Assembly (NCBI GenBank): GCA_030867875.1
Contig: JAOWCC010001501.1
Location: 28,664,792 to 28,728,791 of the forward strand
DNA: 64,000 nt
Reading direction: 5' to 3'
From: Actinernus sp. WN-2022
Lineage: Eukaryota; Cnidaria; Anthozoa; Actiniaria; Actinernidae
Shown here piece after piece: positions 1,056 to 37,127 of the stretch (position 1 is the stretch's first letter; the number at the start of each line of letters is the position of its first letter). Under the pieces are notes generated by a model. That model saw only the letters and a program-made list of their open reading frames with translations. It searched no databases and was not told the origin of the DNA. Both the position numbers and the translations under genes were made by a program.

Positions 1056-1212
1056 TAGCCTGCAAAAGCTGAGTTGCATCTTTGTGCTCACTCCAAAACC
1101 GTTTCCCCAAAGAAACGCCTACAGAACGAGCAACAAAATTTCATACTGGTCTTTGACCTGAATCTTGGCAAAAAAATTGATTGGTCAATCACAGATCCTT
1201 TTGTCTTCTGTG

Positions 1213-1910
1213 TATATTTTCCCCCAACAAACTTTGAGTGCAAAGCAAGCATAGGGAAGTAGTCTTTGGATGTTTTTAAACATTGTGTCAAAGAGCTGGG
1301 CCATGCTTTTGGCTTAAAATCCTTCACCAACAGTCAGATCAATTCCTTATGGGCCTGTTGTTGTGATGGTACATGTAAATATGTATTTGAGCTTACCAAT
1401 GAGATTTGAATGTACATGTAACTTGTACTCATTCAGTTTGCTGTACCGCCACACAATTTCAAGGCTAACTTCACTTTGCTATTTGAGAAGAGCTGTATTA
1501 GTTCATTACAGTAGATTTGATCACCTGCTATACCAATCAATTATTCTTGCTACACCCTAGTTTGTATCATGGTCATAATGGTATCCATCTGAAGTTTGAG
1601 ATTAATGTGTTTGACTAATAATTTGAGTTTGTACATGTATACACATAGAGTTTGTACATACACAAGAGTCAAGATATGCTTCAAACTTTCTGTGTTACCG
1701 GACAACAAACTGAATGAGACTTTCAGTCAAGTCTCATCGGTAAACACAAATACATCACAACAGTTGCATTAGGAATTGACCTGACTGTTGGTGAGGGATT
1801 CAAAGCTAAAAGCAGGGCTAAAAGCACTCTTTGACGCAATGTTTAAAGACATCCAAAGACAATCTTTCCCTACACTTGCTTTGCAATTTGCACTCAAAGC
1901 TTGTTCAAAA
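1213..1910. repeat. Inverted repeat nested in the left arm of E1
   Basis: Bases 1213-1347 reappear inverted at about 1768-1910, sharing features such as 'gtctttggatgt', 'aaacattg' and 'caccaacagtcag'. The two halves enclose ~420 bases of AT-rich sequence. The matching place in the right arm of E1 lacks this block, so it is best read as a foldback insertion. No target duplication could be fixed. Confidence 0.55.
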
Positions 1911-1966
1911 TAATAATTTATGCACGATTGGCCAATCATCAATCCTTCCCTTACCAAAATTGAGTA

Positions 1967-2500
1967 CATTTGGGGTATACTTCATTTGTACCTAAAGTAT
2001 ACCCCAAACCTACCCGAAATAGGTACAAAATAGGTATACCTAAAGTAGCGCACTTTTGGAACCATTATGGGTACATCTGAGGTATACCTCAAATGTACCT
2101 CTTTAACTAAAGACAGTACTACAAATAATATTCAAAAAAATGTGGGGTATACCTCATTTGTACCTAAATTATACCCCAAACGTACCCGAAATAGGTACAA
2201 AATAGGTATACCTAAAGTAGCGCACTTTTGGAACCATTATGGGTACATCTGAGGTATACCTCAAATGTACCTCTTTAACTAAAGACAGTACTACAAATAA
2301 TATTCAAAAAAATGTGGGGTATACCTCATTTGTACCTAAATTATACCCCAAACGTACCCAAAATAGGTACATACTAGGTATATCCAAAGTATCACACTTT
2401 TGGGAACCTGCATTTTGGGTACACTTGAGGTATACCACAAATGTACCTCTTCAACTAGACTGTACTCCGAAATACTGCATGTACACCTGCAGGTAGGGTA
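1967..2500. repeat. GTAC-rich tandem repeat, period 172 bp, ~2.9 copies
   Basis: Copies start near 1967 (partial), 2067 and 2239; the two best copies are almost identical over 172 bases. Each is dense in palindromic GTAC and GTATAC words (for example 'ggggtatacctcatttgtac'). The matching words lie inverted at 5800-5885 in the other arm of E1. The short frames predicted here are translations of the repeat, not genes. Confidence 0.85.
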
Positions 2501-3467
2501 TATAACTTTTGCAGGCATTCAAGGTGTACTTAAAAAGTTCCACCAATGATGTTGAAACTCGTAAATCTTAGATATATTTTTTATTACTTGAACTGATCAT
2601 TAAGCAAATGCTACAAGGTACAATTTGGCCAGAAATGCCATTTGCAGTATAAAAATTTAGTCTGATTCAAAAATAGTCCAACTGAAACTATAACCACAAT
2701 TTGATTTGTAATAATCTTCACTTTAACTTTTGTTTTTGGATGTTTCAATAACATTGGACTCAGCTGCATAATAGTGCCTTGTCTTGCTCTCCATGGAATC
2801 AGCATTCTTCAGTTTCATCTGTTTGCTTTATTGTTCTACAAGAAACAAATGTATACTCTATAGATTACCAACCAGGCATGGGTTTCAATTGATAAGTGCA
2901 TTATATATATTTTATACACTAGAAAATAACCGGTTACTTTGTGCTGAAATTCATCAAATTGTATTGAAAAACTAAAACCATACCATTGTCTTGCAACTGA
3001 TTTCAGTATGACATGCATAGAGATAGATAATAATAATTATTTGACATACTGATTCGACACAATCATTCTGAGAAAAATTATGCTTCTGTTCTGCAACGCA
3101 ATATGTTGGCAGTCTGTAAGATACTTGGAATAAAAATAAGAAACTAAATAATTTGATTTGGTACCTCAAAACCATCATAAACCAGTGAGCCTGGTTACAA
3201 AGCATGTTGAATGGTTGTGTCGAACGAGTACATATCTATGCTGAATGATTCCAGCCCTATATACATGTAATGGCTAAACTGCAGAACACAATGCCACTTC
3301 AGTGCCACTTAAAAAGATGACTTGAAAACTTTGTTAAATTCTCCATTATAGTTCAGGTTTATTTACACTCGTTATATGAACGATTTTAGGTTTTAAATGG
3401 TTAGGGTTTTTTATTTGGCCATGGGGGTTAGGTTTTTAGAACTAATTATATAAGTGGTGTTGTATTT
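2501..3467. other. Interior of E1, nothing recognised
   Basis: AT-rich sequence with only short frames. No protein motif, clear inverted repeat or tandem repeat was seen before the MITE at 3468. Confidence 0.45.
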
Positions 3468-3793
3468 GGGCTATTGCACTTAATTTTCGTACCCCCCCTG
3501 TTGAGGACCATATTTTGAGTTGTACCCTAAAGAATTCCTCTGAAATTAAAAACACCTGAAGAATTCCATGGTGGAAAGTAGTGTTACCCTGAAGAATTGA
3601 CTTCAACCCCTGAAGAATTGTCCAAATATTCACTTTATCCCCAAAGAATTCCTCTAAATTTGATATGTGCCCCCAAAGAATTCCTCTCTATTTATATGGT
3701 ATCCCCAAAGAATTCCTTGAAAAATTATCTGGTGACCCTGCAGAATTCCTTGGTCCTCAACAGGGGGGGTACGAAAATTAAGTGCAATAGCCC
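3468..3793. mobile_element. MITE with perfect 43-bp terminal inverted repeats and an internal minisatellite
   Basis: Bases 3468-3510 (starting GGGCTATTGCACTTAA) are the exact reverse complement of 3751-3793, giving 43-bp terminal inverted repeats with no mismatch. TTT borders both ends and may be the target duplication. The interior is a degenerate tandem array of about eight units of ~21-34 bases, each centred on a word like 'cccnaaagaattcct'. With 326 bases and no coding capacity it is a non-autonomous DNA element. Perfect ends around a diverged array suggest recent mobility or copy-correction of the ends. Confidence 0.9.
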
Positions 3794-4693
3794 TTTGCTA
3801 GTTGCTCCTTAATTTGAAAAAGCTAAATAAACATGAAATGTATATCTAGTTTGCCATGGTGTTATTGCATGTATGGTAGACCTACATGTACATGTATGTG
3901 TTTCTAAGTGGCAGTAAAAAAACAATCAGATCGAGTGCAGATCAGATTTGAGGTAGAAATAATACGGCTCCGAAATTTCTTTTAATCAACTGCATGATAA
4001 CACAAAATTATATATAAATTAAGTGCGTGTGTATATCACTACATGGTACATCATGGTACATGTACTTAATCCAAAGCAACTGATCGAGACTAGCTCGTGA
4101 TGCATGCACAGATCAGAGGTACAACTAGGCGATGAACATGTACAAGAAATTATGATGTAAAAATTACCAAAGTCCAAAGGTTTTGCTCTACATCCATGAT
4201 CACAAAACACAATTAATTCACAAGCAATTTACCTTAAATATGCGAGTAATATCCTGAGGATTCCAATAAAGAAGAAGAACGCACGTCTGATATGGTTGCG
4301 GGTATTTGTTGAACATATGACATATCCCTCCTGAGCAAAGACCGTTGGAAATTTAACGACTTCACATTTTGAGCGCCAGAACTGTTCCGGTAATCTGATT
4401 GGTTATGTCTTATGATGCTGACAGTGACATTCCAAAAATACTCGCTGTTCAATTTCGGATGCCTTTGAACGGTTTCCTTGATTAAAAAAGTCGGGAAAGC
4501 ACTCCTCTTTTCCTAAATGCCTGCTTATCCAGAAAGGAAAAGGTTTTGATGGCACGAGAATAAGAAGAACTAGTCATCAAATGGTTTAACTTCAAGACGC
4601 CAGTTCGCTACGTTTAGGGTCCGCCATCTTGTTTTGATGTGGTTACTGCTGACCAACTGTTGAAACATGCGGGCACATCCAAGGTATTGTTGA
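3794..4693. other. Interior of E1, nothing recognised
   Basis: Mixed AT-rich sequence with only short frames. A small run of ATG- and GTAC-rich words is present, but no gene, RNA or clear repeat could be supported. Confidence 0.4.
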
Positions 4694-4927
4694 CACACAG
4701 GCTACCCGAGCGTAAGGTTTTTGATTAGAAAGAAATAATCACCCGAATGCGCTGAAATTGCACACAGACACAGCATATTAACTGACAACCACACAAGTAA
4801 AGTCTAATTTCTTTTATTTCAATATTTACAGAATTATTGCAATTTCTAAAAACTATAAATTCCCAGTCATCTTGTAAAATAAACGGTTAATCAAAACCTT
4901 ACGCTTGAGTACATTGTAGCCTGTGGT
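4694..4927. repeat. Foldback repeat with 'aagcgtaaggtttttgatta' arms
   Basis: The arm at 4694-4728 (cacaggctac, then gcgtaaggtttttgatta) returns inverted at about 4886-4926. The right copy has about 10 extra bases in the arm. The ~160-base loop shows no coding frame. This fits a short decayed MITE. Confidence 0.55.
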
Positions 4928-5364
4928 CGATGATGGCTAAAATCGATATCTCAATCAAGTCTCAAGTCACTATTTACACAGATACACAATTACTAACATT
5001 ACATTAAAAAGAGAAGAGGAAAAAAGGAAGAATGTGTTGATTATATGTTCGTGCGCAGTGATCAAAGGAGCAAAAGCTTTCGAGTTGATCACTGCCTAGA
5101 AATATTTTCATTCTTTAACCCTGCTTTAACTCGTGCAGTCATGAATAAATTAATTTCAAGAAAGAATATTATGAAATCAATTTAATTTTGATTAATAAAT
5201 ATTACTTATCTGTCTGAAATATGTTGTGTCGTAATTTATGCACTGAATAAGTGAATTTATAAACACCATGATCATATGTTTTTCTGTCATATACGTTTCA
5301 GTGGTTTGTCTGTCATATGTTTTAGTGGCTTTTTGTCATATGTTTTGTCATGCATATTTTAGTG

Positions 5365-5447
5365 GCAATTATGTTACCAACCACTTACCGACCACTTACC
5401 AACCACTTACCGACACAGTTTTACCGACCACTTACCGACCACTTTTT
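5365..5447. repeat. Short tandem repeat of accaCTTACCg, ~11-12 bp period
   Basis: The words 'accacttaccga' and 'accacttaccaa' recur about six times in a row, with one spacer. It is a minisatellite lying just before the GTAC-rich array of the right arm of E1. Confidence 0.75.
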
Positions 5448-5514
5448 TTCGGTGCAGATTTTTCACTTTAGCCATGTAAAAATATATAAAATTATCTGAT
5501 TCTCCAGAAGTAAT

Positions 5515-5885
5515 TAAAGTACATGTGAAGTGTACCTGAAGTGTACCCATTCCTTGAGGTTTATACAGGACTATGGAGAGGTACATTTGGGGTACATGCG
5601 AAGTGTACCTCAAGTGTACCCATTCCTTGAGGTTTATGCAGGAGTATGGAGATTTACATTTGGGGTACATGTAAAGTGTACCTCAAGTGTACCCCATTCC
5701 TTGAGGTTTATCCAAGAGTATTTAAGGTACATTTGGAGTACAGTGGAGTGTGCCTTAAGTATACCTCAAACACTCCACTAAAACATTGAGGTCCATTCTT
5801 GGTATACCTAGATTGTACCTAATCTCACATAGGTACATTTGGGGTATACCTTAGGTACAGGTGAGGTATACTTTTGTGTACCCGA
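5515..5885. repeat. GTAC-rich tandem repeat, ~75-bp period, right arm of E1
   Basis: Three units begin near 5519, 5581 and 5656, each with 'gtgtacctcaagtgtaccc' and 'attccttgaggtttat'. They decay into further 'ggtacatttggggtatacc' words up to 5885. The last part is the inverse of the 1967-2500 array in the left arm. Confidence 0.8.
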
Positions 5886-6589
5886 TTTTGGTAAGGGTTT
5901 TGTCTTCTATATTTTTGACCAGATTCAGGGCAAAAATACATCATCAATATGGAATTTTGTCGCTCGCCCTACAGACATTTCTTTGGGGGAAGCCATTTCG
6001 GAGCGAGCACAAAGATGCAGCTGCTTTTGCAGGCTAGGACAATGCTAACATCAATGAGTTTTATGATTTTATATCAGTGCTTCAAAAAACATTTACTTTA
6101 TGAAAAATGCCATATTACAAACACCTTACTGACCATGCTAGCCTGGGAAACCAGCTGACTCTTATAGCTCCCCCACTCGCGAAAGAGACGTCTGGGCAGC
6201 GAGGCAGAAAATTCCATACTGATTACGTAGCAGATACAGATACATTTAGCTGTTTCACAATGCATAAATTAGTTGCAATTCTCAGAAGCCGATGCGAACA
6301 ACAGAGTTCTTTTCAAGGAATATAACTACTGAGGCTGCTCGTTTGCTTGGCAGGTGCTGTTGGTGGCTCCTTTGCATACATATAGTTCTTTCAGCTGCTA
6401 GTAAAGCGAAATGTCGTACTGTGAAAACATTTACACTGAGTAAAGTGATAAAAAACTGGTACTAATTTCATATAAACCTACACACACTGAGCTATCACAG
6501 AACACTGGATGAGTGGTTGTTGCTGGATAAATTGTTCAGGGCCACTCTTCAAGCCGGATCTTTTGCTAGGCAGTGAATCTCTGCTATAA

Positions 6590-7935
6590 ATAAACATTAC
6601 ATGTATTAAAGTGCACTCCCTTATGAAAATAAGCAAATTTTTTTTTACTTGAAGACTACTTGATGTGTATTTGCAGTTTATATTTTTTCTGTACTTGCAA
6701 GGTACCTGCATTGTGTTTGAAAAGTGTACTTGAACTATATTTGTTTTATCCCTTATAGCTACTTGATGGCTAAAGTATAGAGTATACTTGAGCTGTACCT
6801 TTTTGTACTTTCATTATATTTGTTTTATATTTGTTTTATGGTTGTAATGTACCTGTATTTGAAACATCAAGTACATATTTGTTGTGTAGTTGGTAAGTAC
6901 TTGAAATATATTTGCAAAATAGTACTTGAAGTGTTCCAGTTTACTACTTGAGCAATATTTGCACAAACTGACAAGCATTTCAGAGTTAGGGGGAAATAGT
7001 ACCTAAACCAGACTTGAAGTGTACTTGTTGCTGATACTTGATTAATACTTGAATTGTAATTTCAAAGTTCATGCAGGTCTATATTTGTACGCTACTTGTT
7101 AATGGTTGAATGCTACTTGACTAGTTCTAGACTCCTTGCAATATACTTGACCCTCCCTGACTTGTACCTTTTTGGTCATTGAATTATATTTGCAATATTC
7201 TTGAAATATACTTGGAATATACCTGTATTTGAAACATCAAATACACATTTTATTTTATTTAGTCGATCTGAAAATTAACTTGAAATGTACCCTAAATATA
7301 CTTGAAATGTATACCTGCAAACTACTTGACTTTTAATTTCAACACTTATGCAGATCTGTATTTGCACACTATTTTATTACTGGTTGAATGGTGCTAATGA
7401 CTGATCCTAGAATCCTTGCAAAATACTAGACTTTTACCATTTTGTCATTGAATTATATTTGCAATGTTCTTGAAATAGACCTGTATGTGAATTAATTAAA
7501 CATCGAACAACTGTCACAGATCTGAAAATTAACTTGAAATGTGCCCAAAATATACTTGAAATGTATACCTGGAAACTACTTGAACTGTAAATTCAATATT
7601 CATGCAGGCCTATAGGTCTGTATTTGCACACTATTGTATTGCTGGTTGAATGCTACTTGACTGATCCTAGAGTTCCTGCAATATACTTGACTTGTACCTT
7701 TTTGTCATTGAATTATATTTGCAATGTTCTTGAAATAGACCTGTATGTGAAACATCAAACAATATTGATTATTAATTCGCCACTGAACTGAAAATGATCT
7801 TGAAATGTACATGTACCTAGCATATACTTGAAACGTGTACCGCAAACTTCTTGAACTGTAATTTTAACATTCCTGCTGTTCTGTATTTGTACTGTTTTGT
7901 TACTGGATGAATTAATGCTTCATATTCTTGACTGA
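6590..7935. repeat. TACTTGAA-rich array in left arm of E2, ~265-bp tandem units
   Basis: From about 7020 to 7935, four units of roughly 255-277 bases can be aligned by the recurring words 'gcaggtctatatttg', 'ggttgaatgctacttgac' and 'gaaattaacttgaaatgt'. Upstream (6590-7020) the same short words (TACTTGAA, ATATTTGCA) occur without a clean period. One such unit is found inverted at 11230-11400 in the opposite arm. Confidence 0.8.
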
Positions 7936-8744
7936 TCTTAGGGTTATTGCAATATACTTATATATATACAGTAGGTAATTGAACTGGGAAAATAGCCCTG
8001 TTGCCAATATATTATCTACATCTCTCAGTGCTATGATCAACAAAACAGTCGAGTAACTTTTAGTTATTTGTTTATTTAAAAGTCGTCGTTGCTGACTGTA
8101 GCAAAACTATAAAAAAACGGAAATCACGAGTGCTGCCTCCCGGCAGGGAAGACTCAACCACTGAGTTATTAACTCCGAATACAGGGGCTGGAAAATGCAA
8201 GGAATTGAAAGCTTTTTGAGTTACAACCAGAAGAGGGTTTGGATTGACCAGTACGTAGATCAGAACATAGTTCACGATACAATATTGGCAACGTTTCAAG
8301 TTATAACGACATGGCATTTTCAACAACATTATACCCGCTTCTCACTCTTTAGCTGCAGACAGCAAAACCATGTGGCGCCGTTTTACATGTTTGGACATCC
8401 TTGACAACTTTTTTTCTTCGTCAAGCACCTTTATGGTCACAGCTATATTGATAAAAAATATTTCAAAGTTGTAATCTTTAAGATTTACGTAAACACGCGG
8501 GCTGTTAGCGACTTCGCTTTGGTAGAATTCGGACTGTTTATGACTAGGAACACGGCCAAAAATACAAGCGAGTAAAAAAATGAAATATAGATACCATTCA
8601 TAACTGCCGTTTATCTTGGTTGTTATGTACATGTAGGAAATCTCACCGTAAATCCCGCCATATAATGTGTTAAACTACATTCTACAGTTGTAAACAATTC
8701 GCATGTGAATCATGCCTGTCACTCGATACACAGTGGCGTTTTCG
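7936..8744. other. Centre of E2, left part; nothing recognised
   Basis: Only short frames are present, the longest being 96 codons on the minus strand at 8342-8632. Its translation resembles no family I know and has one hydrophobic run that may be chance. No splice-supported exon or RNA gene was seen. Confidence 0.4.
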
Positions 8745-9700
8745 GTAATTACTCGGGCTGCCTGTGGCAGCGCCGAGTCTTAAAATGCAAGTCGTTATTA
8801 TTATTATTTTTATTTCATGTCAGACGGCTTCTGCGCATGCGTTAAAGGTCAAATTCAAACCAATCAGATTGCACTGTGCTGGTCACGCAACAATCGCCAG
8901 GTTAATGTATTTACATAAGTGAATACAGTAAATCAAAATGGTCGACCCGCGAGGGCGAAAGCCTTCCAACAGGCTCAGGATATTTCAGCTGGCGCTCTTG
9001 TTGACCATAAAAATACATGAACAACCAGGAGCCGGAATACATTCGATCAGCGCTGTTTGGACAGATCCAATGTACATTTAGAAACGTAAGCGAAATACAA
9101 TATCCAAACACGTTTGGATATCAACGGGTATCGAATTATCATCAAAGGTTAGATCTCGTCAGGCGCGCTCAGATAAGAAAGTTCAAAGCTCTCAGACAAG
9201 GCGAGACAAGGAGTTATCACTTTCAATGAGTCATTGTCGGAAATCTATTCCATCGTGGGCGGTCTTGTACAGCTAAGGCATGTTTTACGACAGAATAACC
9301 AGAGTCTTTCTACTGGATTGAGAGCTCGAGACATTATACATGTCGGCTAATATGGGGAAAACTGAAACGAAAAATGAACTTTGACGGCAGAAACCCTCAA
9401 TTGAGCCAAGTGGAATAGTTACATGATCCGCTAAGATTTTTACAAATCTTAGTTAAGCAGATGTTTTCAGTGTATGCCAACTGAAATGCGGCAACTACAC
9501 GAACAAGAAGCATGAACTGCCAGCAAAGAGAGAGGAAAAAGTATTTGAAATGCACAGCGCTAGCTGAAATAGGGCATATATATAATATCTGAGACGTTAA
9601 ATTACGTTACTGTGAAGAGGATCAAAATTCAAGTTTTGTAGCTTCAGACTGTCTTCTGCCGTGACTCGTGAGAGAAATTGGAAAAGATCTAGCTGTTTCA
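8745..9700 (+). repeat. Hairpin-headed dispersed repeat (copy 1)
   Basis: It opens with a double stem (ACTCGG, then GCTGCC/GGCAGC around TGT, then CCGAGT), a T/A-rich run, and 'caaaccaatcagattgcact'. Further on, 'ttttacgacagaataacc' matches 'ttttacgacaggataact' in the copy at 57105. Copies at 57105-57560 and 58975-59370 share the same order: head hairpin, T-rich run, 'aaccaatcaga', then a few hundred bases. No coding frame is shared, and the family type is unknown. Confidence 0.6.
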
Positions 9701-10442
9701 TTCAGACACTGGCAAATTTATTGAAAGCTACGGGCTTACTTTATGAGATTATTATTCATTGTAGAATGAAAGGAAACAGGTTAGCTGAAAGTTAAGTTCG
9801 AGGTAGGCTTCGACTTTCATTCCGATTCAGTGCATATGTGCACGAAGGTGGGTGCTGTCAACATCACTACCAAAAGATCCAAAACGAAAGTTCAGTTACG
9901 TAAGTACTGTAAGTAAACTCTTTTTGATTTGAATAAATTTCCTCTCAGTTTGTCTGTTAATGTACTTTTTCTTCTAATTATCGCTTTATTTAACATCTGT
10001 GATTTAGAGTATGCGTACCTCAGAATAAATTATTTGAAAGGTCAACTGAATTCTTGTTTCGATAAGCGCAAATGTTTTTTGTGAAACAGTCTGTGTATAT
10101 AGAAGCGGCTTAATAGAAGAGCTTTCTCATTTATAGGAATTACAATTTTTTTTCTTGCTATGAAATTTATGTTTCATTTCACATTTATTCATACAGTTTT
10201 AGCCGGACATTTCCCCGAGTTTTTGATCTATTGTCAATCAAATTCAAAGTCTGAATATGTCATTGTATTGCATTTATACACTTGAATTGCCAGTGTTCTG
10301 TTGTTCGAATCCTGCGTTATCATAGTCATGCCATAAAAGCGATTAATAGACCAGTCTGTTTTTTTGACGTTCTCACTGGCGAATTAAAGCACGACTTGAT
10401 ACTAAGAGGATTTCAAATGAAAGTGTATTTCATCTTCAATCT

Positions 10443-10510
10443 CATGTGGCCCGAGTGAAAGCCCAGATGGGCTCTTGTTTATTTTGATTGATTCTCATTG
10501 GATGTTACAC
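10443..10510 (+). repeat. Head fragment of the hairpin-headed repeat (copy 2)
   Basis: The string GGCCCGAGTGAA is followed by a 5-bp stem AGCCC/GGGCT around AGAT, then CTCTTGTTTATTTTGATTG. The same layout with different stem bases is at 58977 and 62264. Only the head is recognisable here. Confidence 0.6.
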
Positions 10511-10814
10511 AATGAAGCTGTCAATTCAATGTCTGGACACTGTAACATGTACCACGCGTGACATAGTCCTTTATGTTATTCATGATATGTATATAGGTTA
10601 TATTTATTTCTCGTAAATGTTCTCTTCATCTCTTCATTCCTCTCTCTATATATATACCGATATAGTAGTTCTCCAAGCGAGGGCCTCTGGAACCGGCCCA
10701 TGGTAAAATGCTTCGCGATTCGAAAAATCATGTAAAATGCCTCTATAAAATGATATAAACCCTGACGTATACGATCACTTCGTTAATAAAATAATTACTA
10801 TTCAAGTTCAAATA

Positions 10815-10921
10815 TTCCCTGCTAGCAGAGGTCTCTCACTGTCTTGGTAAAATGTTTCTCGTTTCTTGGTAAAATGTTTCTCGTTTCCGACAGAAAGAGA
10901 TCAGACCTCTGCCAGCAGGGC
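10815..10921. repeat. Small foldback with CCCTGCTAGCAGAGGTCT ends
   Basis: The 18-base end CCCTGCTRGCAGAGGTCT occurs at 10817 and inverted at 10920. Between them, a 22-base word starting 'ttggtaaaatgtttctc' is repeated in tandem. Related words ('agcagcggtctct', 'ggtaaaat') occur near 34235 in element E3, so both larger elements carry relatives of this piece. Confidence 0.55.
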
Positions 10922-11225
10922 ATACAGCTATCAGGACATGTAAATGATGTAGGGTTGAATTGAACCCGCCCGGTGTTGAAGCCTTTAGAGCCATTTATAC
11001 AAATCACAAATCACAAATTTAATGATCTCATCTTACCTCGTTTGTCTTGAAAGGCTTACTCCAAAGGTTTGCCTTTTCTTGAAGCCATATTATACAGATA
11101 TCGCGAAGAGATCACACATACGTCGTACCGAAAACCGTTGGTAAAATAAAAATGGCACAACAATACACAATGCAATGCCAACCGTTCAAATCAATCCCAC
11201 AATGCACCAATGCATCCCATAATGC
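10922..11225. other. Centre of E2, right part; nothing recognised
   Basis: This run leads into the right arm and contains several 'cacaatgcaatgc'-like short words. No coding or RNA signal was seen. Confidence 0.4.
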
Positions 11226-11417
11226 AATGAAGCCCTTCTTGGCAGTCAAGTACCATTCAACCAGTACTAAAATAGTGTGCAAATACAGACCTAGTAGCCT
11301 GCAAGAAAATTGAATTTACCGTTTAAGTAGTTTGCAGGTACACATTTCAAGTATATTTTGGGCACATTTCAAGTTCATTTTCAGATCTGTGACAATTAAT
11401 AAACATGTATGCATGCA

Positions 11418-12236
11418 AACACATTTCATGTACACCTACTTGATATGTACTTGCCACACAAGACTTAATGTTCTGCTAAAATGTCTGTTGCAAATACATT
11501 TCATGTACCGACCTACTTGATATGTATACTTGTCATATATATAAGAGCTGCCGTCTGGTGCAAATACATTTCATGTACACCTACTTGATATGTACTTGTC
11601 ACACAAGACTTAATGTTCTGCTAAAATTTGTGTTGCAAATACATTTCATGTACACCTACTTGATATGTACTTGTCATATAAGAGCTGCCGTCTGGTGCAA
11701 ATACATTTCGTGTACACCTATAGCTACTTGATATGTACTTGCCACACAAGACTTAATGTTCTTCTAAAATGTCTGTTGCAAATACATTTCATGTACACCT
11801 ACTTGATATGTACTTGTCATATATGGAGCTGCCGTCTGTTGCAAATACATTTCATGTACACCTACTTGGTATGTACTTGTCACACAAGACTTAAGGTTCT
11901 GCTAATGTGTCTGTTGCAAATACATATCATGTACACCTGGTCTTATATGACAAGAACATATCAAGTAGCCGTCTGTTGCAAATACATTTCATGTACACCT
12001 ACTTGATATGTACTTGTCACACAAGACCTAATTTTCTGCTAAAATGTATGTTGCAAATACATTTCATGTACACCTACTTGATATATACTTATCATATAAG
12101 ACCTGCCGTCTGTTGCAAATACATTTCATGTACACCTACTTGATATGTATTTGTCACACAAGACTTAATGTTCTGCTAAAATGTATGTTGCAAATACATT
12201 TCATCTACACCTACTTGATATGTATTTGACATGCAA
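11418..12236. repeat. Dimeric higher-order tandem repeat in right arm of E2
   Basis: Twelve monomers alternate between two forms. Form A (~75 bp) ends 'cacacaagacttaatgttct'; form B (~62 bp) ends 'cttgtcatataagagc' then 'tgccgtctg'. Both begin 'gcaaatacatttcatgtac' then 'acctacttgatatg'. Six A and six B monomers alternate, a ~138-bp higher-order unit. In the B monomer at 11912-11973 the inner 29 bases (11939-11967) are inverted. The 60-113-codon frames predicted across this block are translations of the repeat. Confidence 0.85.
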
Positions 12237-12762
12237 GAATACGAAACATACAAGTCAAGTACACTTCAATACACTACCTAAGTTGTACTTGACATCAGTA
12301 CAACACAAGTATTGTGGCAAGACTACTTCAAGAAATGCTTGAAGATCAGTCAAGTATATTCAAATACAGTGCAAATACATGCTTAACAATAACAAGTATA
12401 CTTCAAGACAAATCAAGTAGCATTCAAGTCTATTTCAAGTACCATGTAAGGACATCTAGTATTATAAGGGCTATGAATCACGAACGTGATGGCCATTCAC
12501 CCAAGCAAACGGGCAGCCTTGGTAGTATACCTGAAAATAACTGCTGCATTCTGTAGCTAACCTCTTCGGCTACTGACCTGGCAAAAGAGCTGCCTTGAAA
12601 AGTGGCCTGCTGTGCTGTGTGTATTGGTTTTGAAATTATAAACAACTATTATGTTTTGACAGTCGTAGGACAAATTCTCTTGACCGGGCCGAGCCGCTGA
12701 AAGAATGAAGCAAACTAGCTACCGACACATGCTAAATAGGCTTGAATTTCATGGTTGTTCAT
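12237..12762. repeat. Degenerate outer part of the right arm of E2
   Basis: This is a run of CAAGTA/TACTTG words, followed by a piece at 12555-12620 matching 6525-6590 inverted ('gccactyttcaag', 'tcttttgcyaggtcagt'). It joins the array to the well-conserved terminal 217 bases. No coding content was seen. Confidence 0.55.
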
Positions 12763-12989
12763 GACAGTGATCCACTGCCAAGCAAACGAACAGCCTTGCT
12801 GGTAGTTATATTCCTTGAAAAGAACTATTGTTCGCATTCGGCTTCTGAAAATTGCAACTAATCTATGCATTGTGAAACAGCTATGTGCTACGTCATCAGT
12901 ATGGAATTTTCTGCCTCGCTGCCCAGACGTCTCTTTTGCAAGTGGGGGAGTGATAAGAGTCAGCTGGTTTCCCAGGCTATGACCATGCA

Positions 12990-13376
12990 AGCTTTACACT
13001 TTCTAGGGCACCACACTGATCAAGAAATGTTTTAAGTGTTATTATTATATCTGGATCATGCAATCTACTAAAAAAATGTATAAACATACCGATAACTAAA
13101 TACAGGGCCCAGCATTTATTCTAGACCACAATGTTTATTGAAAACCCAGCCTTATAATTAATTTTAACTAAACATCTTGTCAATATACCATTTTACATGA
13201 ACCAGGGAATACCAGTTGTATTACTTTCCATATAATTATAGACAGAGGAAATAATGTTTCTGGTTTCAAAAGGACTACAAAAATGAAGTTGTCAAGCAAA
13301 TACGAAAAAGTGTTCATGTTTAAAAATACTGGGGCAGGTTCAAATACATGTACATGCAAGGGTTCAGTTGTTCAAA
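12990..13376. other. Spacer between E2 and the palindrome; nothing recognised
   Basis: AT-rich with short frames only. No repeat boundary was noticed until the left arm of the next palindrome. Confidence 0.4.
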
Positions 13377-13917
13377 GGGTGGATAAAAGGTGGGTAGAAT
13401 GCACATTACAATTTTCCCCACTATTTTGTCAAAACTGCTTGTCCTCTATGTTATTAACAAGTAATCGCATGGGTTCTCATAAACATAAGGATTAATTTCA
13501 CTTGTGTCTTCAAAATTGATAAAATTGCTTTGCTGCATGACTTGAGAAATTTTGTAAATTTTAAAATGTATGAAATGTATCCTTCATTTTAGTCAGCCCC
13601 ATTCTATTACCTATAAATATTAGAGAGGAGTATATACCCTTTATTTATTCCTAATTCACTGAGCCAGTGAGGATTTCATAAATGAGGCTCTCAACAACAA
13701 AAAAGATTAATGTCTAATAAACACTGGGTCAATATTATTATGGCTAAATTTTAAGTAAAGCATGGGCATTTGTTTGAGAAAATGCAGAATTACCTGAATT
13801 ACAAATGTTACCTGACTAAAATACATTGCAACTGGTACATGTACATGTACAATGTAAGTTGTATTTTCTTAAATACAAGCCCTGATATTTACTTATAAAA
13901 TTTGGCTCTGTAGACCA

Positions 13918-13998
13918 GGGCCCGGTTGTTCAAAGGGTGGATAACTTTATCCACTGGATAAATCCCTAAGCTATCAACCCTTTGAACAACCTGGTCCA
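13918..13998. mobile_element. Short MITE, GTTGTTCAAAGGGTGGATA family
   Basis: The string CGGTTGTTCAAAGGGTGGAT is followed by repeated TTATCCACTGGATAAATCC words and closes with the inverse end 'ccctttgaacaacctgg'. Relatives are at 43233-43347 and 46986-47303. It occupies the exact centre of the large palindrome. Confidence 0.75.
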
Positions 13999-14411
13999 CA
14001 GAGCCAAATTTCATGAAATGCCAGGGCTTCTATTTGAGAAAATACAAATTACATTGAACATGTACTGCAATGCATTTTAGTCATGTAACCTCTGCAATGA
14101 TTCAAGTAATTCTGCATTTTCTTAAACAAATGCCGATGCTTTATCTAAAATTTAGCCATAATAATATTAACCGAGTGTTTATTAGACATAATATTTTTTG
14201 TTGTAGAGCCTCTGAAATCTTCACTGGCTCAGGGAACCAGGAATAAAAAAATTGGGCACTCCTCTCTAATATTTATAGGTCATCATATGGGGTCAAGTAA
14301 AATGAAGGACTAATTTCACATGTTTTTAAACTTTACAAAATTTCCCAAGTCATGCAGCGATCAGAGCAATTTTATCAACTTTGAAGACACAAGTGAAATT
14401 AATTATAATCC

Positions 14412-15842
14412 TTAAAGGGATACCCGAGTGAAAAACACATTTGGGCTCAAAAGCACCTTTCAGATGTACTTTCTTCAGAAAATGTATTAAAATTTGATTA
14501 AACTTTTTCATAGTTGAGAACGAGCCCCTCAAAGTTGGTCCCGCGAAGACCTGGGTGCCGCCATTTTGTTCACATTAATTCCTGTGACGTTTTTTACGTC
14601 ACTTCGTCCCACCGGAGTCTTGCGGCTAACTTGTAGCGACTTGTTTTCTTTGTAGAATTTTCACACGCTCGGAATTAGAGTAGATTTTCATCGATATGGC
14701 AGAGCAATTTCGTACTAGAACAAAAATATGATGAAGACGATATTGTGAGAGAAGTTCAGAAGACTGGGAGGACGAGGAAACGCATGTGGAAGGCGAACAA
14801 CAAAAGGCGACTACCGAGCTAGTGCTATAAAGATTCGCTGTATGTTTTTGTATGGAACTTGTCAGCCTTAAACACAAGACTAAAGGTAGATTATTACAAT
14901 ATTGATATCGGCATAGCAATCGAAACTTGTTTAATTTGACCCAGATATATAATCAGGGTGTAGCAAGCCACATAATTTTAATTTCGTTCCTAACTGATGT
15001 GTTGTGAAACAGCGCGCGCACGCCAAGTTCCACCACAAACATGCCAGGCTTGATCGCGCCAATGCTTTCAAACAATTTAATAAGGGAATGGAATTATTTT
15101 TGCAATAAAATTGCTCCGAGTGTCTCATTCTTGTGTCATTGCATATATTCTGCTATGTTGGGCAAGTTATGACCAGTTTTAACAGGGAGATTTTAACTTT
15201 TCAGGTGTTTCAGTTGCACAAAGCCATGCAGTCTGTACAGATCGAACCGGATAACTCGCAAATTATATAGCCCCAATAATACATGTTTCGAAAGCAATGC
15301 CAATATCAATATTGTCATACTATACCTTATTAGTCTTGTGTTTAAGGCTGACAAGTTCCATACAAAAACACACAGCGAATCTTTACATCGTAGCACAACA
15401 CCAGTTTTGCACTACGATGTAGCTCGGTAGTCGCCTTTTGTTGTTCGTCTGATATTTTCGCCATCCACATGCTTTTCCTCGTCCTCCGAGTCTTCTGAAC
15501 TTCTCTCACAATATCGTCTTCATCATATTTTTGTTCTAGTATGAAATTGCTCTGCCATATCGATGAAAATCTACTCTAATTCCGAGCGTGTGAAAATTCT
15601 ACAAAGGAAACAAGTCGCTTCAAGTTAGCCGTAAGACTCCGGTGGGACGTAGTGACGTAAAAAACGTCACAGGAATTAATGTGAACAAAATGGCGGCGCC
15701 CAGGTCTTCGCGGGGCCAACTTTGAGGGGCTCGTTCTCAACTCTGAAAAAGTTTAATCAAATTTTAATACATTTCCTGAAGAAAGTACATCTGAAAGGTG
15801 CTTTTGAGCCCAAATGTGTTTTTCACTCGGGTATCCCTTTAA
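14412..15842. mobile_element. TTAA-target foldback element with ~520-bp inverted arms
   Basis: TTAA borders both ends (14412-14415 and 15839-15842), and the ends inside are AGGGATACCCGAGTG and its inverse. The arms run from 14416 to about 14932 and from about 15290 to 15838 and are highly similar; the ~350-base loop is unrelated. The undisturbed palindrome arm reads TTAT where this arm has the TTAA pair, so the insertion site is directly visible. TTAA duplication is typical of the piggyBac and Kolobok superfamilies; no transposase frame is present, so the choice is open. Predicted 60-99-codon frames in the arms are mirror copies, not genes. Confidence 0.9.
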
Positions 15843-15935
15843 GTTAATGAGGACCCATGTGATTACTTGTTAATAACAGAGGTCAAACGTTTTGACAAAA
15901 TAGTGGAATAAATTGTAATGTGCATTCTATCTCAT

Positions 15936-16499
15936 GGGAAAACTGGGTTAGTGTCAAATATCAAACAACATGAACACAAGACACAATTTGTATTGTTCAA
16001 GAAACTTGCTTGACTAGTTATTACTTGTGCCAGGCCTTTGGCCTCCCAATTAACAAAGTTTTGCAAGTGTTTATCAAGCAATCAAAAGGACACAATTTTG
16101 CCCCCAATAAGAAAAAATACATGTACATTCTTCATCAGCTAATCAGATTTTCAGTAAACATTGCTTTTGTATTGATATGTCCAGTTATGTGACACATCAA
16201 TATATACATCAACGATCAACCATCACGAGTCCACAAAAACCCAAAAAATCCTGCCGTCTTCTCTGATGAGTTACTTATGATAATTATACAAACTTATAAA
16301 ATATGAACCAATCAAAGATCACTACCAGGTTTTCTGGTAGTGACATCACTGGATGGCATTATCTTCGAATGAATTCAGACGTCTCTCTCGGGAGGAACGA
16401 ACCAGAGGAGACAGCTGAAATGTTCCTAGCATTTATTTTAAAATGCCCCTAGCATTTATTTAAAATCACCCTGCTCATACATTATACAGATACCTACGG
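15936..16499. other. Spacer with a partial hairpin-like piece; otherwise nothing recognised
   Basis: At 16015-16070, 'ttacttgtgccaggccttt' then 'ggcc' resembles the second head of the copy at 57157 but is decayed. The rest is AT-rich with short frames only. A TCTGGTAGTGACATCACTGG-like piece near 16330 has a small inverted repeat (accaggttttctggt). Confidence 0.4.
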
Positions 16500-21914: not shown

Positions 21915-21919
21915 GTGCG

Positions 21920-23158: not shown

Positions 23159-23197
<39 letters not shown>

Positions 23198-23970: not shown

Positions 23971-23978
23971 CACCCTTA

Positions 23979-26059: not shown

Positions 26060-26216
26060 GGTTTTTGTGGAGGGAGGAAAAAGCCGAGAACTTGGAAAAG
26101 GGGCGATAACAAGAAACTCAACTCAGATATGGCGCCCCGATCAGGTGTCTACTGAGCCACCATAGAGATGACTGAGAGGCAAGGCGCTAAACCACTGCGC
26201 CACCCCGGCTCCTTGT
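26060..26216 (-). repeat. tRNA-derived SINE (unit 1)
   Basis: Read on the minus strand it starts GGAGCCGGGGTGGCGCAGTG, with a box-A-like TGGCGCAGTGGTTTAGCGCC. About 50 bases on, a degenerate box B follows (CTGATCGGGGC), then 'catatctgagttgagtttc'. It is repeated at 31045-31197 in unit 2 as part of the unit duplication. Box B is too damaged to expect activity. Confidence 0.75.
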
Positions 26217-27498: not shown

Positions 27499-28555
27499 CA
27501 CAGGCAGCCCAGACTAGACATATATTTCCCGCTTTTTGGGTTACCTGTGGTATGTTTCATAAGCCATCTCGGAAGAGTTTATATAATTGCTCCTTGTGAA
27601 TTCTCTTTTCCGATTCCTATGAAATAAATCTTCAATAATAAAAGATTGATTGCCCACGCATCTTGAAAGCACCACCTGCGATGTCTACCGCTGATTTGTG
27701 GATCGATAAATCGGCAGATCCTATACCGAGAGAAATATTTTGAATTCGGAATTTATTTTCAAGGCCGTTTTCACGTTGTTTGGCCTGAAACGTGGATGAG
27801 AAGTGCTAACACATCTCTGGATTTGTGTGCCGAAAGCAGAGGCGAAATCGATGTGAATTTCTCGTCGAATTTCGGCGGCGAGTGAGGTCACATCGATGAA
27901 AAGCGCCTCGAAGCTGCATACCTTGTATATTTGTGTCTTTGAGGTGACACCGCGGCAAAACGTTACGCGCATGCGTATTTGCTATTTCTTGACGGCGCGC
28001 GGCCGCCCCCAGTTTCCGGCGAAAATGAAATCAAACAACAGGCACATACCCTTGATTTTAAAATTTCTGCGTAAAAGTACCATTTGTGAACTGTTTTGTC
28101 AAAAAATAAGAAAACTACTTAAAAGCTAAGCCTAAGACTTTAACAGGTTGAAGTTTTCTTAATTTGTAATACACTGTGAGTTTACTAAGTTATAAAATTA
28201 TTTACTAAAAAAGTTGAAACCCTCGGTAATTTGTATTTGATAGCAGAGCCTTCGTTCTTTTGGCCAGCGGAGCATACCGTTTTGCCGCGGTGTGCTTTGA
28301 GGTAGACACGCGGCCAACCGTCATGATCAAAACCTCGAAGCCTAATAAACTGCTTTAGAAGTCCTCAAATCACCCCCAAACCACTCACACAACTTCATTA
28401 AGTATCAATCGTTTATTATTGAAGATTTATTTCGTAGGAATCGGAAAAGAGAATTCACAAGGATCAATTATATAAACTCTTCCGAGATCGCTTATGAAAC
28501 ATACCACAGGTAACCCAAAAAGCGGGAAATATATGTCGAGTCTGGGCTGCCTGTG
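27499..28555. mobile_element. 1,057-bp element with ~150-bp inverted ends and 7-bp target duplication
   Basis: The ends CACAGGCAGCCCAGACT are inverted over ~150 bases (27499-27650 and 28405-28555). ATTGAAC is duplicated (27492-27498 and 28556-28562), and units 0 and 2 show the empty site 'aattgaacttac'. It contains a younger MITE at 27946-28294. It has no transposase frame. A 7-bp duplication does not settle the superfamily (hAT and P usually give 8). Confidence 0.85.
27946..28294. mobile_element. 349-bp MITE, ACACCGCGGCAAAACG ends, 9-bp target duplication (copy 1)
   Basis: CTTTGAGGT flanks both ends exactly (27937-27945 and 28295-28303). The terminal inverted repeat is SACACCGCGGCAAAACG. 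The same element, in the opposite orientation, is at 38355-38705. A 9-bp duplication suggests Mutator-like mobilisation. It has no coding capacity. Confidence 0.92.
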
Positions 28556-28691
28556 ATTGAACTTACCGAAGGTACGTTTTTATCAGGGAGGTGGGCTGGC
28601 TGATTTGTACAAAATATATATCTTAATATTTACGGTGACCCTCCCCTCCCCTTTACTAGACATTTCCATGGTCCCCTTCCTTAAACCTCCA

Positions 28692-30097
28692 GAAGGCTTT
28701 ACAAAATTAAACGTGTTGACCAACTCATGTTTCGATTTGTGTGGAACTTCAAACCCGACAAAATAAAAAGGAACACTCTTTTAGCACCAATTGAGAAAGG
28801 TGGTCTTGGTATGATCTCCTTCGTTGTTCTCGAAAAAGCCGTAAAATGTGCATGGGTCAAAAGGATATGTGCATCAGATAACTTATCTTGGACTTCTATC
28901 TTACACCTCTATCTTCAAAAGTACGGAGGAAACTTCATTTTCGAATGTAATTACGACACCAGTTTATTCGAATTTAATGACTTTCCTGAGTTCTACAGAG
29001 ATGTTCTAAAAGCCTGGCAAGAATTGACAGTTAAATACCCTATCACTGGCAGTGAAGTAGAACAATAAATATTATATATGGAATTATAAGTCCATAATAG
29101 GCCCTTTGCAGCTAACAGTGCTGATATAATACGTCATTAACGAATGAATTGAGCTCGTGATCCCTATGGGAAAGACGTAGCCATGGGTGCTGGAGAGCAA
29201 GCTAGCTTTAAAAATGCAGTTTTAGAAAGATCGATCGACAATCGATTGGAGGTGGAAAATAGCATTTACAAACACAAGTCAGGTTTTGCTAATAACACTA
29301 CCGATCTCGTACAAGGCCTTTGAATAAATGAAGTCAGATATTTCTTGCTCTCCTGTTTGTTAGCTGCAAAGGGCCTATTATATCTGGAAAGGCAGTATAC
29401 TATATATAAATCCTGGCACAAAAGCAAAATTACAACAATCGGTGATTTCTTAGAAGGAAATAACTGCCTAACCTTCGACCAATTAAAATTAAAGTTCAAT
29501 GTACAGATCAATTTCTTAAATTATCAAGACTTGGTGCATGCCATACCAGCAGAGTGGAAACAAATGCTAAAAAAACAAGAGATGATGACTGTAGAACGCA
29601 TGGAATCAATCTAAAACAATTCAATATAAACAACAAAAATGTAACTGCAAAGAATGCACGACTCGCGCTCTCATCAAAGATAATCCGGCCAAGTAGGGCT
29701 AAAAGTTCCAAGCAATGTTTACATCCTGGCGTTTCGAATCATCAAGGAAACGAAGTTGAGATGTTTTCAGTTCAAAATAATACACAACATCATACCAACA
29801 CATGAAAAACTTTGCCAAATGAGAGTTGTAGAAAGCCCAATTTGTAATTTCTGTGGTACTTGCAATCAAACTGTGGAACATATGTTATGTCTATGCAATA
29901 TGGTAAAAACATTTTTGATGCAAATTATCAGCTGGTGGGAAACAAAAACCAATATCACAATCAACCTCGAAGGCAAAGTCATTCTTTACGGCTATAAAAC
30001 TGAATGCAGAGATTTCTATGCAACTAACCACTTCATTATGCTTGCAAAATATTATAGGTCAGCTCAAACAGCACAAACAAAATTGGAGTTCTCTTAG
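28692..30097 (+). pseudogene. L1/Tx1-like LINE, C-terminal part (copy 2)
   Basis: This is the best-preserved copy. An open frame at 28727-29068 holds 'FRFVWNFKPDKIKRN', 'EKGGLGM' and a Tyr/Phe-rich region ending 'VLKAWQELTVKYP'. The MITE then interrupts it. The frame at 29345-29614 continues with 'YKSWHKSKITTIGDFLEGN', and the frame at 29756-30097 holds the terminal Cys/His motif (ICNFC, EHMLCLC) and stops at 30097. Apart from the MITE, at least one frameshift (~29600-29750) is needed to join the parts. The 5' two-thirds of the LINE is absent. Confidence 0.82.
29099..29379. mobile_element. MITE with AGGCCCTTTGCAGCTAACA ends (copy 1)
   Basis: Inverted ends AGGCCCTTTGCAGCTAACA and their inverse enclose ~240 bases. 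Unit 1 shows the empty site 'ccataattatatctgg', which is restored exactly if the element and one AT are removed. The inner sequence ('gaatgaattgagctcgtga', 'gattggaggtggaaaatagc') has a relative at 58434-58595. Confidence 0.85.
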
Positions 30098-33640: not shown

Positions 33641-33815
33641 TGATTACACGATTTTCGAACTGACCGGCACAGTTTTACCAATCATTTTGGAATTTCTGCG
33701 TAAAGACAGCTTTCGGCCTAGAATTCACGAGAGCGTGAACGTCAATGGGAAATCCAAGAAACCATTAAAAAGACAGCTGCTAAAGTTGGGGGTTATCTTG
33801 GTGTAAGAACCTTAC

Positions 33816-36800
33816 TAGCCTGCTTTCAGGCGGTAGATGGTGTTTTTTTCGCGCAAACGGATCATCGAAGCGGCCGCCATTCGCTATTATCGCACTTCGG
33901 CCATCTTGGATTGAAAGCGAGGCTTCCGGGTTGTCGGTTGCGTAGCGCTTACTATGTGCTCTGTTGTTGGTCGCGAGTTTGGATGAAAAAGCTACTTCAT
34001 CTCCACTTCTATAATTCCAATTGTACAAATAATAGCCAGAAAAGAAGATCTAGGGATTCTTTTCACATATTTGATTCCAATAAACAGCTCAGAAAGCGAT
34101 GGAGTTTGAAAATACGCGGAGATGTCGACCCACACTTCAGACTTCGATAAATATCCAGAGGTAGAGTGAGGGAAAAAAAACAAGTAATACTTCTTCGGTT
34201 AAAGTATCACAGGTTCCCTCACTGTACTCACAGCTAGCAGCGGTCTCTACAGGTAAAATAAGAAGAGAGAAACCTCACCTAGCAGGGCGAATGGAACATG
34301 TTAAGTCTACACGTGCACCTGTGAGCCACCCTCTATTATTATATTTTGATAATTTTTAATGCACATGGGACTATTTTCACGTTTTTCCCCGTTATTTTTC
34401 ATTTTACGAATAAGACTTGTGTACTTTGCACACCACTAATAATAAATTGGCACTAATTTTGAAAGTGTCATGACCATCATATTAAAGTTTTAATGTGTGA
34501 ATAATAATTGTTATGTAAAATATATTATATATCATATGTATTTGTACTGAATCAAAGGGAAATATTTTGGGAGGATTTATTAGAATGGTCATGGGTGTTA
34601 TGCAATGATATTTATCACTGTCAAATTTCTGGTATGAAATGAAGGTTTATTTATTAGTAAATATGGGATTGTCATGTGTGATTTTCTTAGTAATACCACG
34701 ATCACCTCCGCTTTCTTTGTTTGTTCAGGGACATTTAAACTCTAAATTCCCTCATCAGCATGGATACTTGTTCTAATTTTCTCTCGTTGACATGCAAGAA
34801 TGAAAATTAGAAGGGCATGCATGCTGATGAGGGTTATGGCAGGTCATTATAAAAATTAGTCCCTAGCAGAGTGCATGAATGCCTGTCAACCCTGTACCAG
34901 AACCTATTTTATGGCTCAAGAAAGGTCTTCTCTTCATTTGTCAAACCCACTTCTTCCATACATGTGAGATAATTATACTTAAAACCACAAACATGACATG
35001 ATTAAACTCTATGCGTGCTCCTGGAAATTTAGTCAGCCACATATTACATTTTATTTTCACATTTTACTTGACATTTTATTTATTCTTCACAAAATCAACA
35101 CACTTGCAGGGTCCAGTTCAACCAATGGTGCTCAATCAAGCATAACAAAACGTTTAAAAAAATCAACTATGGTAACTTTAGTTTAGGCAGAGAAAAACTC
35201 CTCTGAGATTAGTTTCATTAGTCAGTGATAATAGTATTACAAAGTAATAGCATGAAATTAGCTAGTGATTAAATTTCCCCTTGACCCTTGGGAGGATTTA
35301 TGCAAATTCTCCCTAATCCCCCTCAGCCATAAATCCTCCCTCCGCTCTCGGGGGAAATTTGATAACTAATTTACCGTATGCCATGCCATTACTTATAATA
35401 ATAATATTTTGGAGTTTGGACTGATTTTACTTACCAGTAGCCTGACTGTTAGGTCTATTTGATTTTATTAAACTTAAAAAAAGGGTTAAAAAGGTTAAAA
35501 AATCTGCTCTATCTGTGAATAAATTCAAATTAAGCTATCCTCCATAATTTCTGTGGCTTGGCTTGGGAAAGAAATAATATTAATTATAATAAATTGATAA
35601 AAAGGATGTAAATGATGCTGGAGTACCCATCCAGCTAGCAGCTACATGTAGGTTATAAAAAAACATAGTTTCATCATTGCATTATGATTATGGCAGAAGA
35701 AAATATATTGTACAAAATGTTGTAATATACCAAAACAGACAACTGAGACAGTGGCAGTATTTATTAACATAGTATAAATTATTATTACAATATATTTTAA
35801 TATGTTACAATTTATTTACATGATTGAAATAAAATATTAATAGTGATACAAAAGCTGGATCGATGGTATATTGTTAGTATGGCTGCTCCCCTAAAGCATG
35901 AGATAGTTACTACCAAGACATACAAGGCCCTAACCCATTGGCTATATCCAGCCTGATGATAATTTTACAGTATTGCTCAACTAAAAGTAGGCTGTACCCT
36001 GCCAGACTCCAACCTGATCAGCTGATTCTGATCAGGTGATTTAAAAACAATTAGGTAGTCATTGTTGCAATTTTTATTGCCATTATTAGCACTATCATCA
36101 ACATCAATATTGTTTAGCATTAATACCATCACCAGAACCATTTCCATTGTCACTATCATCATTGTACATGGTCAAATGACCCATATCTCAGTTTCTCTAC
36201 AGGTAATTTTGGTCAATTTCCAAGTAGCCATTTGTTAATAATGGCCCAACATTGCAAGTCAGTAATACTGTCATTATCATCATCTTAACATACACTACCT
36301 GGTATACATATGATATATGTATCAGGAGCCATATTATGTATATATCATATAGTTACAGTACCAATGCAATGTTATCAGCCATCCATGCAAGTGAACCATT
36401 TTCGTTCATTGATAATACATTTTCTCTGAAATCCTCACACAAACCTTCTAAAAACCTAACCCAAAATTTGCCAAAAGCCCTAACCATTTCCAACCCAAAT
36501 CGTTCCTAGAACGAGTACACCCAAGCTATAAAATTATGAAGGATTTTTCACAGGTTTTCAAGTGATCATTTGAAGTGGCAGGGTATACTGCAGTGAGGAA
36601 CTTTCTCTCTTGTTTTTTACGTATAGAAAATGGACTTCTGCTATCTGTTAGTCTGGGGGAACCTGTCACACTTATTTAAGCGAAGAAGTATTTTATAATC
36701 AGCTGTTTTTTACTCACTGGATATTTTATCGATGTCTGAAGTATGGGTCGACATCTCCGCGTATTTTCAAACTCCATCGCTTTTAGAGCTGTTCATTGGA

Positions 36801-37127
36801 ATCAAATATGTGAAAAGAATCCCTAGATCTTCTTTTCTGACTATTATTTGTACAATTGGAATTACAGAAGTGGAGATGAAATAGATTTGTCATCCAAACT
36901 CGCGCGACCAACAACAGAGCAAAATAGTAAGCGCTACGTAACCGACAACCCGGAAGCCTCGCTTTCAATCCAAGATGGCCGAAGTGCGATAATAGCGAAT
37001 GATTGAGACCTGAGATCATTGAATGACAAATGGAGGGGGGAGGGGGTGGGGGAGAATTCGATCCCAGGTCTCAATCACGCTCGGCCAATATGGCGGCCGC
37101 TTCGATCTACCGCCTGAAAGTAGGCTA
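33816..37127. mobile_element. Long inverted-repeat element E3 (TAGCCTG termini)
   Basis: The left end TAGCCTGCTTTCAGGCGGTA is mirrored at 37127, and arms of ~470-540 bases match (33816-34285 with 36590-37127). The right arm has an extra ~100-base piece with a G-run near 37030-37070. The nine flanking bases are GAACCTTAC and GGACATTAC, seven of nine identical, fitting a decayed 9-bp duplication. The 2.3-kb centre is AT-rich, with no frame over 85 codons. The TAGCCTG start links it to E1 and E2. Confidence 0.75.
34290..36589. other. Centre of E3: AT-rich, two small foldbacks, no gene
   Basis: Foldback 1 lies at 34749-34834 (ccctcatcagcatg returning inverted, with an inner ctaattttc pair). Foldback 2 lies at about 35240-35400 (arms 'gattaaatttcccc' and 'ggggaaatttgataac', extended outward by 'aatagcatg' and 'catgccatta'). 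Otherwise short frames only. Confidence 0.5.

Follow-up and report, generated by a model that had tools for sequence, protein, structure and literature searches.

Does a large element with tandem arrays in its arms represent one giant transposon, or several insertions read as one? The question is raised by a stretch of 64,000 nucleotides from the actiniarian Actinernus sp. WN-2022 (assembly GCA_030867875.1, contig JAOWCC010001501.1, forward-strand positions 28,664,792 to 28,728,791; the whole stretch is called the window here), for which a preliminary description had proposed three large non-coding elements, E1, E2 and E3, that start with TAGCCTG, end with CAGGCTA and, in E1 and E2, carry satellite arrays in their arms. 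We find that the TAGCCTG/CAGGCTA ends are real, and that the three giants are nests of known kinds of elements that had been wrongly joined. The locus is very probably a nest in which small elements resembling Mutator-like elements (MULEs; class 1) have been split by array-bearing elements of a CACTA/TRC-like type (class 2), with an unrelated repeat in E3.

Nested insertions in E1, E2 and E3

E1 and E2 are carried by a larger dispersed repeat, R. A genome search that took the opening 305 bases of E1 as query scored 40 of 438 candidates, and 30 loci (L009-L038) were fetched, the window itself among them, which leaves 29 other loci. Empty sites were scored with 8 mismatches allowed per 50 bases, and the occupied state at the insert sites was scored for the E1 insert only. 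The site of the E1 insert proved to be empty in 18/29 loci and occupied in 0/29, and that of the E2 insert was empty in 15/29; since four pairs of loci share common flanks and are probably duplicates, these counts correspond to 16 and 15 distinct empty sites. At the junctions, the window reads CAATCCTT-CCCTTACC...GGTAAGGG-TTTTGTC versus CAATCCTTTTGTC in the relatives of E1, and GTGCACT-CCCTTATG...ATAAGGG-CTATGAATC versus GTGCACTATGAATC in those of E2, which gives duplications of TT and CT, respectively. Positions 1948-5897 and 6618-12470 are thus separate insertions with 2-bp duplications, and the tandem arrays, although present as described, lie in the arms of these later-inserted, CCCTTA-ended elements and not in the TAGCCTG parts.

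The E1 insert is itself a dispersed element: in a genome search (40 scored of 5,573 candidates) its left half was matched at 37 other listed places, beginning at the first query base in 21 of them, and right edges fell at the expected base. Equal 2-mers stand outside the CCC/GGG ends in 14/14 fetched end pairs of these copies (AA, AT, AT, AA, AT, AG, AC, CT, TA, TT, TG, AT, AC and CC). One further copy of ~9 kb (L045), with an AT duplication and flanks identical to one of the 14 pairs, was considered as a coding relative and rejected: its extra 5.5 kb are a nested repeat, and only one frame in L045 reaches 120 amino acids or more. The edges of this nested repeat (L045:2447-7993) are matched by window 21915-23980. 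Another copy of the E1 insert, judged by eye, is located in an E3-type repeat (L041).

E3 is also composite. Its bulk, 33879-37000, is a separate repeat that recurs at 38 further genomic places (39 scored including its own copy, of 6,362 candidates), and the edges of this bulk lie near 33879/37000 rather than at TAGCCTG, as had been foreseen as a reason to doubt the proposed element. In the five copies fetched with both ends well matched (L004-L008) the flanks differ, and no target duplication of the repeat is visible there; the ends read TTCGC...GCGAA with A before and T after, one base being different in L006. The left part of the small element is interrupted at GCGGCCGCC, and its sequence picks up again beyond the insert at ATTGAGACCTG, in the way predicted by its inverted right half, with 13-16 bp of the target missing at the junction and 27 extra bp further left.

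That no recognisable transposase is present was borne out: the longest stop-to-stop frames are 92, 130 and 93 amino acids in the E1, E2 and E3 inserts, the 130-residue frame falling within the array of the E2 insert, and four frames of 72-110 amino acids from the E1 and E2 inserts gave no Pfam match at E <= 0.1.

TAGCCTG elements and the 9-bp duplication

The terminal motifs hold for the most part: TAGCCTG begins at 1056, 6139 and 33816 and CAGGCTA ends at 6036 and 12979, but E3 ends in TAGGCTA (37127), with one base changed, and the start of E2 formerly placed at 6129 includes the duplication. Without their inserts the elements measure ~1.03 kb (E1), ~0.99 kb (E2) and ~0.19 kb (E3), and E1 and E2 are mostly ~1 kb in other copies of R. 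Inverted ends extend over about 210 bp in E2 and, imperfectly, over about 420 bp in E1, and the ends of the two are similar over about 100 bp.

The 9-bp duplication of E2 (TGACCATGC) is perfect (9/9), and empty sites were found for it. The left junction of E2 is occupied in 16/29 other loci and its site is empty in 3/29 (L030, L035 and L038), where L035 and L038 look like one locus twice, leaving probably two distinct empty loci. The empty site reads TTACTGACCATGCAAGC, with the 9-mer present once (one base different in L030), which documents the 9-bp duplication of E2 directly. The match of 7/9 claimed for E3 was found as well, and the flanking 9-mers of E1 match at only 5/9. For one given pair, the chance of at least such a flank match is 5.9e-6 for E2, 0.0018 for E3 and 0.059 for E1: on these values E2 is solid alone, E3 is plausible and E1 is not. 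In copies of R where the right end of E1 was found (<=3 mismatches), 4 to 6 of 9 positions agree.

A survey of 164 kb (the window plus flanks of 40 kb on the left and 60 kb on the right) gave 1,243 TAGCCTG/CAGGCTA-like end pairs, with at most one mismatch per end and at most 8 kb apart. Exact flank duplications of 9 bp occur in three of these pairs, whilst there are none at 7, 8, 10, 11 or 12 bp, three at 6 bp and one at 5 bp. The three cases are E2 and two small elements, L075:303-553 (251 bp) and L075:4952-5194 (243 bp); in addition, an 82-bp element with TAGCCT-type ends (L004:244-325) has GCATAATAT on both sides, a perfect 9-bp duplication. The Mutator-like mobilisation put forward in the preliminary description is accordingly upheld by these ends and duplications, with E2 and its empty sites in front and the exact 9-bp flanks standing out among the surveyed pairs. 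Judged from sequence, the small TAGCCTG elements are supported as a MULE-like group, in which E1, from its ends, would probably be included.

Similarity between copies of R continues to the left past TAGCCTG to window 117-122 in 22/29 other loci, and outside this edge the flanks all differ in the 11 copies printed; the left flank of E1 is hence part of R, which starts at about 121. Three copies were extended on the right side: R could be traced to 16202 in one and to 16215 in another, but only to 15473 in the last, and it holds further insertions on this side. A comparison of window 1-1056 with 12980-30000 revealed no inverted repeat that would close R. Because E1 and E2 were amplified together with R, their copies within R do not count as separate insertion events. 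In L012 and L013, the left flank of E1 switches exactly at TAGCCTG; the left flank there is an inverted copy of the right flank of E1, tandemly repeated in L012. In L017 and L018, probably one locus twice, the left half of E1 runs into the right half of E2, which is a deletion between these neighbouring TAGCCTG elements. Yet another insert within R, with long inverted arms (CCTTAAAGGGATACCCGAGTG...), occupies window 14404-15838 and is missing from L067, where 14403 is joined to 15839.

Arrays of 11-bp period and further features of the window

Each stretch was compared with 200 dinucleotide shuffles, and an 11-bp period was detected in 4/4 insert arms (z 6.1-12.5). Nine other stretches, comprising the E1/E2 cores, the insert middles and the E3 arms, gave z of -1.7 to 2.1. 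A coarser sliding scan, run on the window and the 100 kb surrounding it, flagged blocks only in the E1 insert, the left arm of the E2 insert and L070 and L071. The latter two belong to a third array element of 8,683 bp (L070:8623 to L071:7305, G000:C540), which adjoins the window on its left: it exhibits CCCTTACC...GGTAAGGG ends, a TA duplication and CATATGGG-like 11-bp arms, with a motif unlike those of the E1 and E2 inserts. No transposase-like frame was seen by eye in the stretches of it that were listed, no family search being made. The third element interrupts a reading frame that presumably belongs to an element resembling a long interspersed nuclear element.

Compared by eye, the array units of the E1 insert and those of the E2 insert are alike at 9/11 positions, so that a common origin is possible for these two of the three families; overall, the two inserts have no similarity at E <= 0.001. 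Where both ends of a CCCTTA...TAAGGG pair have periodic arms (144 kb), 3/5 pairs show matching 2-mers. The family-specific, phased arms of these CCCTTA elements are the unusual feature of the locus, and a narrow literature search found no report of 11-bp phased CACTA arms.

Table 1. Coordinates of R, of the TAGCCTG elements and of their inserts in the window
Feature	Position	Strand	Basis
Larger dispersed repeat R, carrying E1 and E2	121..16215	.	right end approximate
E1 left half, TAGCCTG element of ~1.03 kb	1056..1947	+	comparison with related loci
E1 insert, CCCTTACC...GGTAAGGG ends, 3950 bp	1948..5897	+	TT duplication 1946-1947 / 5898-5899
E1 insert left arm, 11-bp period	1948..2520	+	z 8.4, 0/200 shuffles as high
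Nested piece, 43-bp inverted repeats	3487..3793	.	query 1537-1843 skipped in other copies listed
E1 insert right arm, 11-bp period	5510..5897	-	z 6.1, 0/200 shuffles as high
E1 right end	5900..6036	+	comparison with related loci
9-bp duplication TGACCATGC, left copy	6130..6138	.	flank match, empty sites
E2 left half, TAGCCTG element of ~0.99 kb	6139..6617	+	comparison with related loci
E2 insert, CCCTTATG...ATTATAAGGG ends, 5853 bp	6618..12470	+	CT duplication 6616-6617 / 12471-12472
E2 insert left arm, 11-bp period	6640..7960	+	z 12.5, 0/200 shuffles as high
E2 insert right arm, 11-bp period and longer tandem units of 75, 137 and 418 bp	11240..12460	-	z 8.2, 0/200 shuffles as high
E2 right half	12473..12979	+	comparison with related loci
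9-bp duplication TGACCATGC, right copy	12980..12988	.	flank match, empty sites
E3 left part, TAGCCTG element of ~190 bp	33816..33878	+	inverted-half comparison
E3 insert, unrelated non-coding 3.1-kb repeat, inverted arms of ~400 bp	33879..37000	+	copies elsewhere
E3 remainder	37001..37127	+	inverted-half comparison

Elsewhere in the window, 17087-21649 exhibits reverse transcriptase, RNase H and integrase matches and is presumably a Ty3/Gypsy-like retrotransposon. On the minus strand, 51890-55642 contains a reverse transcriptase match and, short of the curated cut-off, matches to RNase H and phage integrase, in a domain order that we take to be DIRS-like. A frame with a WSC domain (E 1.1e-18) at 62635-63027 is perhaps an exon of a host gene.

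Relation to known transposons and origin of the locus

The TAGCCTG elements share 9-bp duplications, inverted ends and the absence of coding capacity with non-autonomous MULEs, from which they are set apart by the TAGCCTG ends and their size of 0.08-1 kb; MULEs make target duplications of 8-11 bp, mostly 9 bp, and flanks matching at 9/9 are seen in E2, the two L075 elements and the L004 element. For the inserts, the closest likeness is to the animal TRC-type CACTA elements, which, in the available parts of the reports on SmTRC1 (PMC1636069) and Hydra Spongebob (PMC4298943), have CCC ends and 2-bp duplications: CCC...GGG ends, 2-bp duplications and repeats near both ends are common to both, whereas the copies here are non-coding and their arms are long arrays of 11-bp period with a motif that varies between families. 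Subterminal motifs also differ between families of plant CACTA elements, where TNPA-like proteins bind them (PMC2613891), and the repeated motifs of the inserts resemble these in varying by family; the plant elements differ in their CACTA ends and 3-bp duplication, and the part of that report that was available describes no strict 11-bp period.

A CACTA-type enzyme supply is likely to exist in this genome, given the abundance of Transposase_21 (PF02992): of 264 candidates at least 150 matches were scored, all above the cut-off, about 30 of them (counted by eye) in open frames of 850-939 amino acids, whilst 0/14 control genomes match.

Four explanations compete with parts of the picture given above, or extend it. 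Giant single foldback-type Mutator elements, with long arms made of satellite arrays, would account for the TAGCCTG ends, the 9-bp duplication of E2 and the inverted arrays, and such shapes do exist: in the available parts of the reports, the Foldback-type elements Tm1 (PMC3169594) and Tetris (PMC4079207), and likewise Rehavkus (PMC6446971), combine 8-10-bp duplications with tandem repeats in or near inverted arms, as well as, like the copies here, being non-coding. Here, however, the tandem repeats lie outside the element that makes the 9-bp duplication, and membership in the Foldback/Rehavkus group was rejected, with the arrays sitting in inserts that have 2-bp duplications and are missing from related copies. 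The giant-element model is contradicted by the clean empty sites, at related loci that hold E1/E2 without arrays, and also has against it the occurrence of the E1 insert at 37 other listed places with CCC/GGG instead of TAGCCTG at all 14 fetched end pairs; we regard it as highly improbable. That the CCCTTA elements belong to another superfamily making 2-bp duplications is unlikely, albeit far less remote: coding relatives with such ends were not encountered, and the CACTA/TRC assignment depends on ends and duplication length. Against this, the duplicated 2-mers vary (AA, AT, AG, AC, CT, TA, TT, TG, CC), unlike those of Tc1/mariner elements, which are TA-specific. In the available parts of the TRC reports (PMC1636069, PMC4298943), CCC ends and 2-bp repeats fit that type, and Transposase_21 is abundant here.

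As for the arrays, they may be passive minisatellites that grew by slippage inside the elements without any binding role, an explanation to which we assign somewhat less than an even chance. Tandem growth by repeated duplication is visible in units of 73, 137, 172, 260 and 418 bp, and the 9/11 agreement between E1 and E2 units leaves room for shared descent of two families; on the other side stand the three families with an 11-bp period beside like ends, the third with another motif, and the absence of overall similarity between the E1 and E2 inserts. The period common to three families argues for constraint. A more tentative proposal, which we consider doubtful on present evidence, is that the CACTA-like class has kept its CCCTTA ends and 11-bp period whilst swapping the motif by family (TACCTCAAATG-, TACTTGAAATG- and CATATGGG-like), the arms being phased landing strips for a fast-evolving, family-specific protein; such strips would align on one face of the helix, bringing both ends together.

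With these alternatives weighed, the preferred reading remains that of two element classes in a nest. Class 1 would comprise small non-coding TAGCCTG...CAGGCTA elements with 9-bp duplications, most likely moved in trans, presumably by cut and paste, by a MULE transposase. Class 2 would comprise larger non-coding CCCTTA...TAAGGG elements that duplicate 2 bp of their target and whose mobilisation is most likely due to a TRC-type CACTA transposase supplied in trans; their 11-bp arms would be rows of putative sites, spaced at about one helical turn, to which a DNA-binding protein encoded by a transposon would attach. Because E1 and E2 are at the same sites in many copies, R spread first, together with both; in the copy of R seen here, class 2 elements then inserted into E1 and E2, and the unrelated 3.1-kb repeat inserted into E3.

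Several observations weigh against this reading. The flanks of E1 agree at just 5 of 9 positions in the window, and 11/29 loci for the E1 insert and 14/29 for the E2 insert could not be scored as empty, being shortened, rearranged or diverged. Exact CCCTTA...TAAGGG pairs 300-12000 bp apart in the 164 kb have equal 2-mers in 9/63 cases with ~4 expected, about twice chance, so that a 2-bp match is weak evidence for any single pair; the two periodic-arm pairs that do not match are cross-combinations that share an end with the three that do. In the third element, the rightmost 1.4 kb taken as a whole give a weak signal (z 2.4; last 500 bases, z 4.3), the E2-insert middle gives a 22-bp signal (z 3.8), and the sliding scan left the right arm of the E2 insert unflagged. 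Since tandem growth is visible in the arrays, they need no function. Finally, CCCTTA ends were not observed on any coding element, and by eye no Transposase_21 match lay within 10 kb of the copies of the E1 insert among the places listed.

These results correct a plausible but wrong reading: the long arms at this locus come from nested insertion and not from giant foldback elements. They also supply elements that keep an 11-bp period while the motif differs. The subterminal repeats of plant CACTA elements are irregular, and phased landing strips, if true, would go beyond them. Should the arms indeed be bound by a protein of the transposon, a change of motif is expected to go with a change of protein, and the at least 150 places with a CACTA-type transposase in this genome would allow a direct test.

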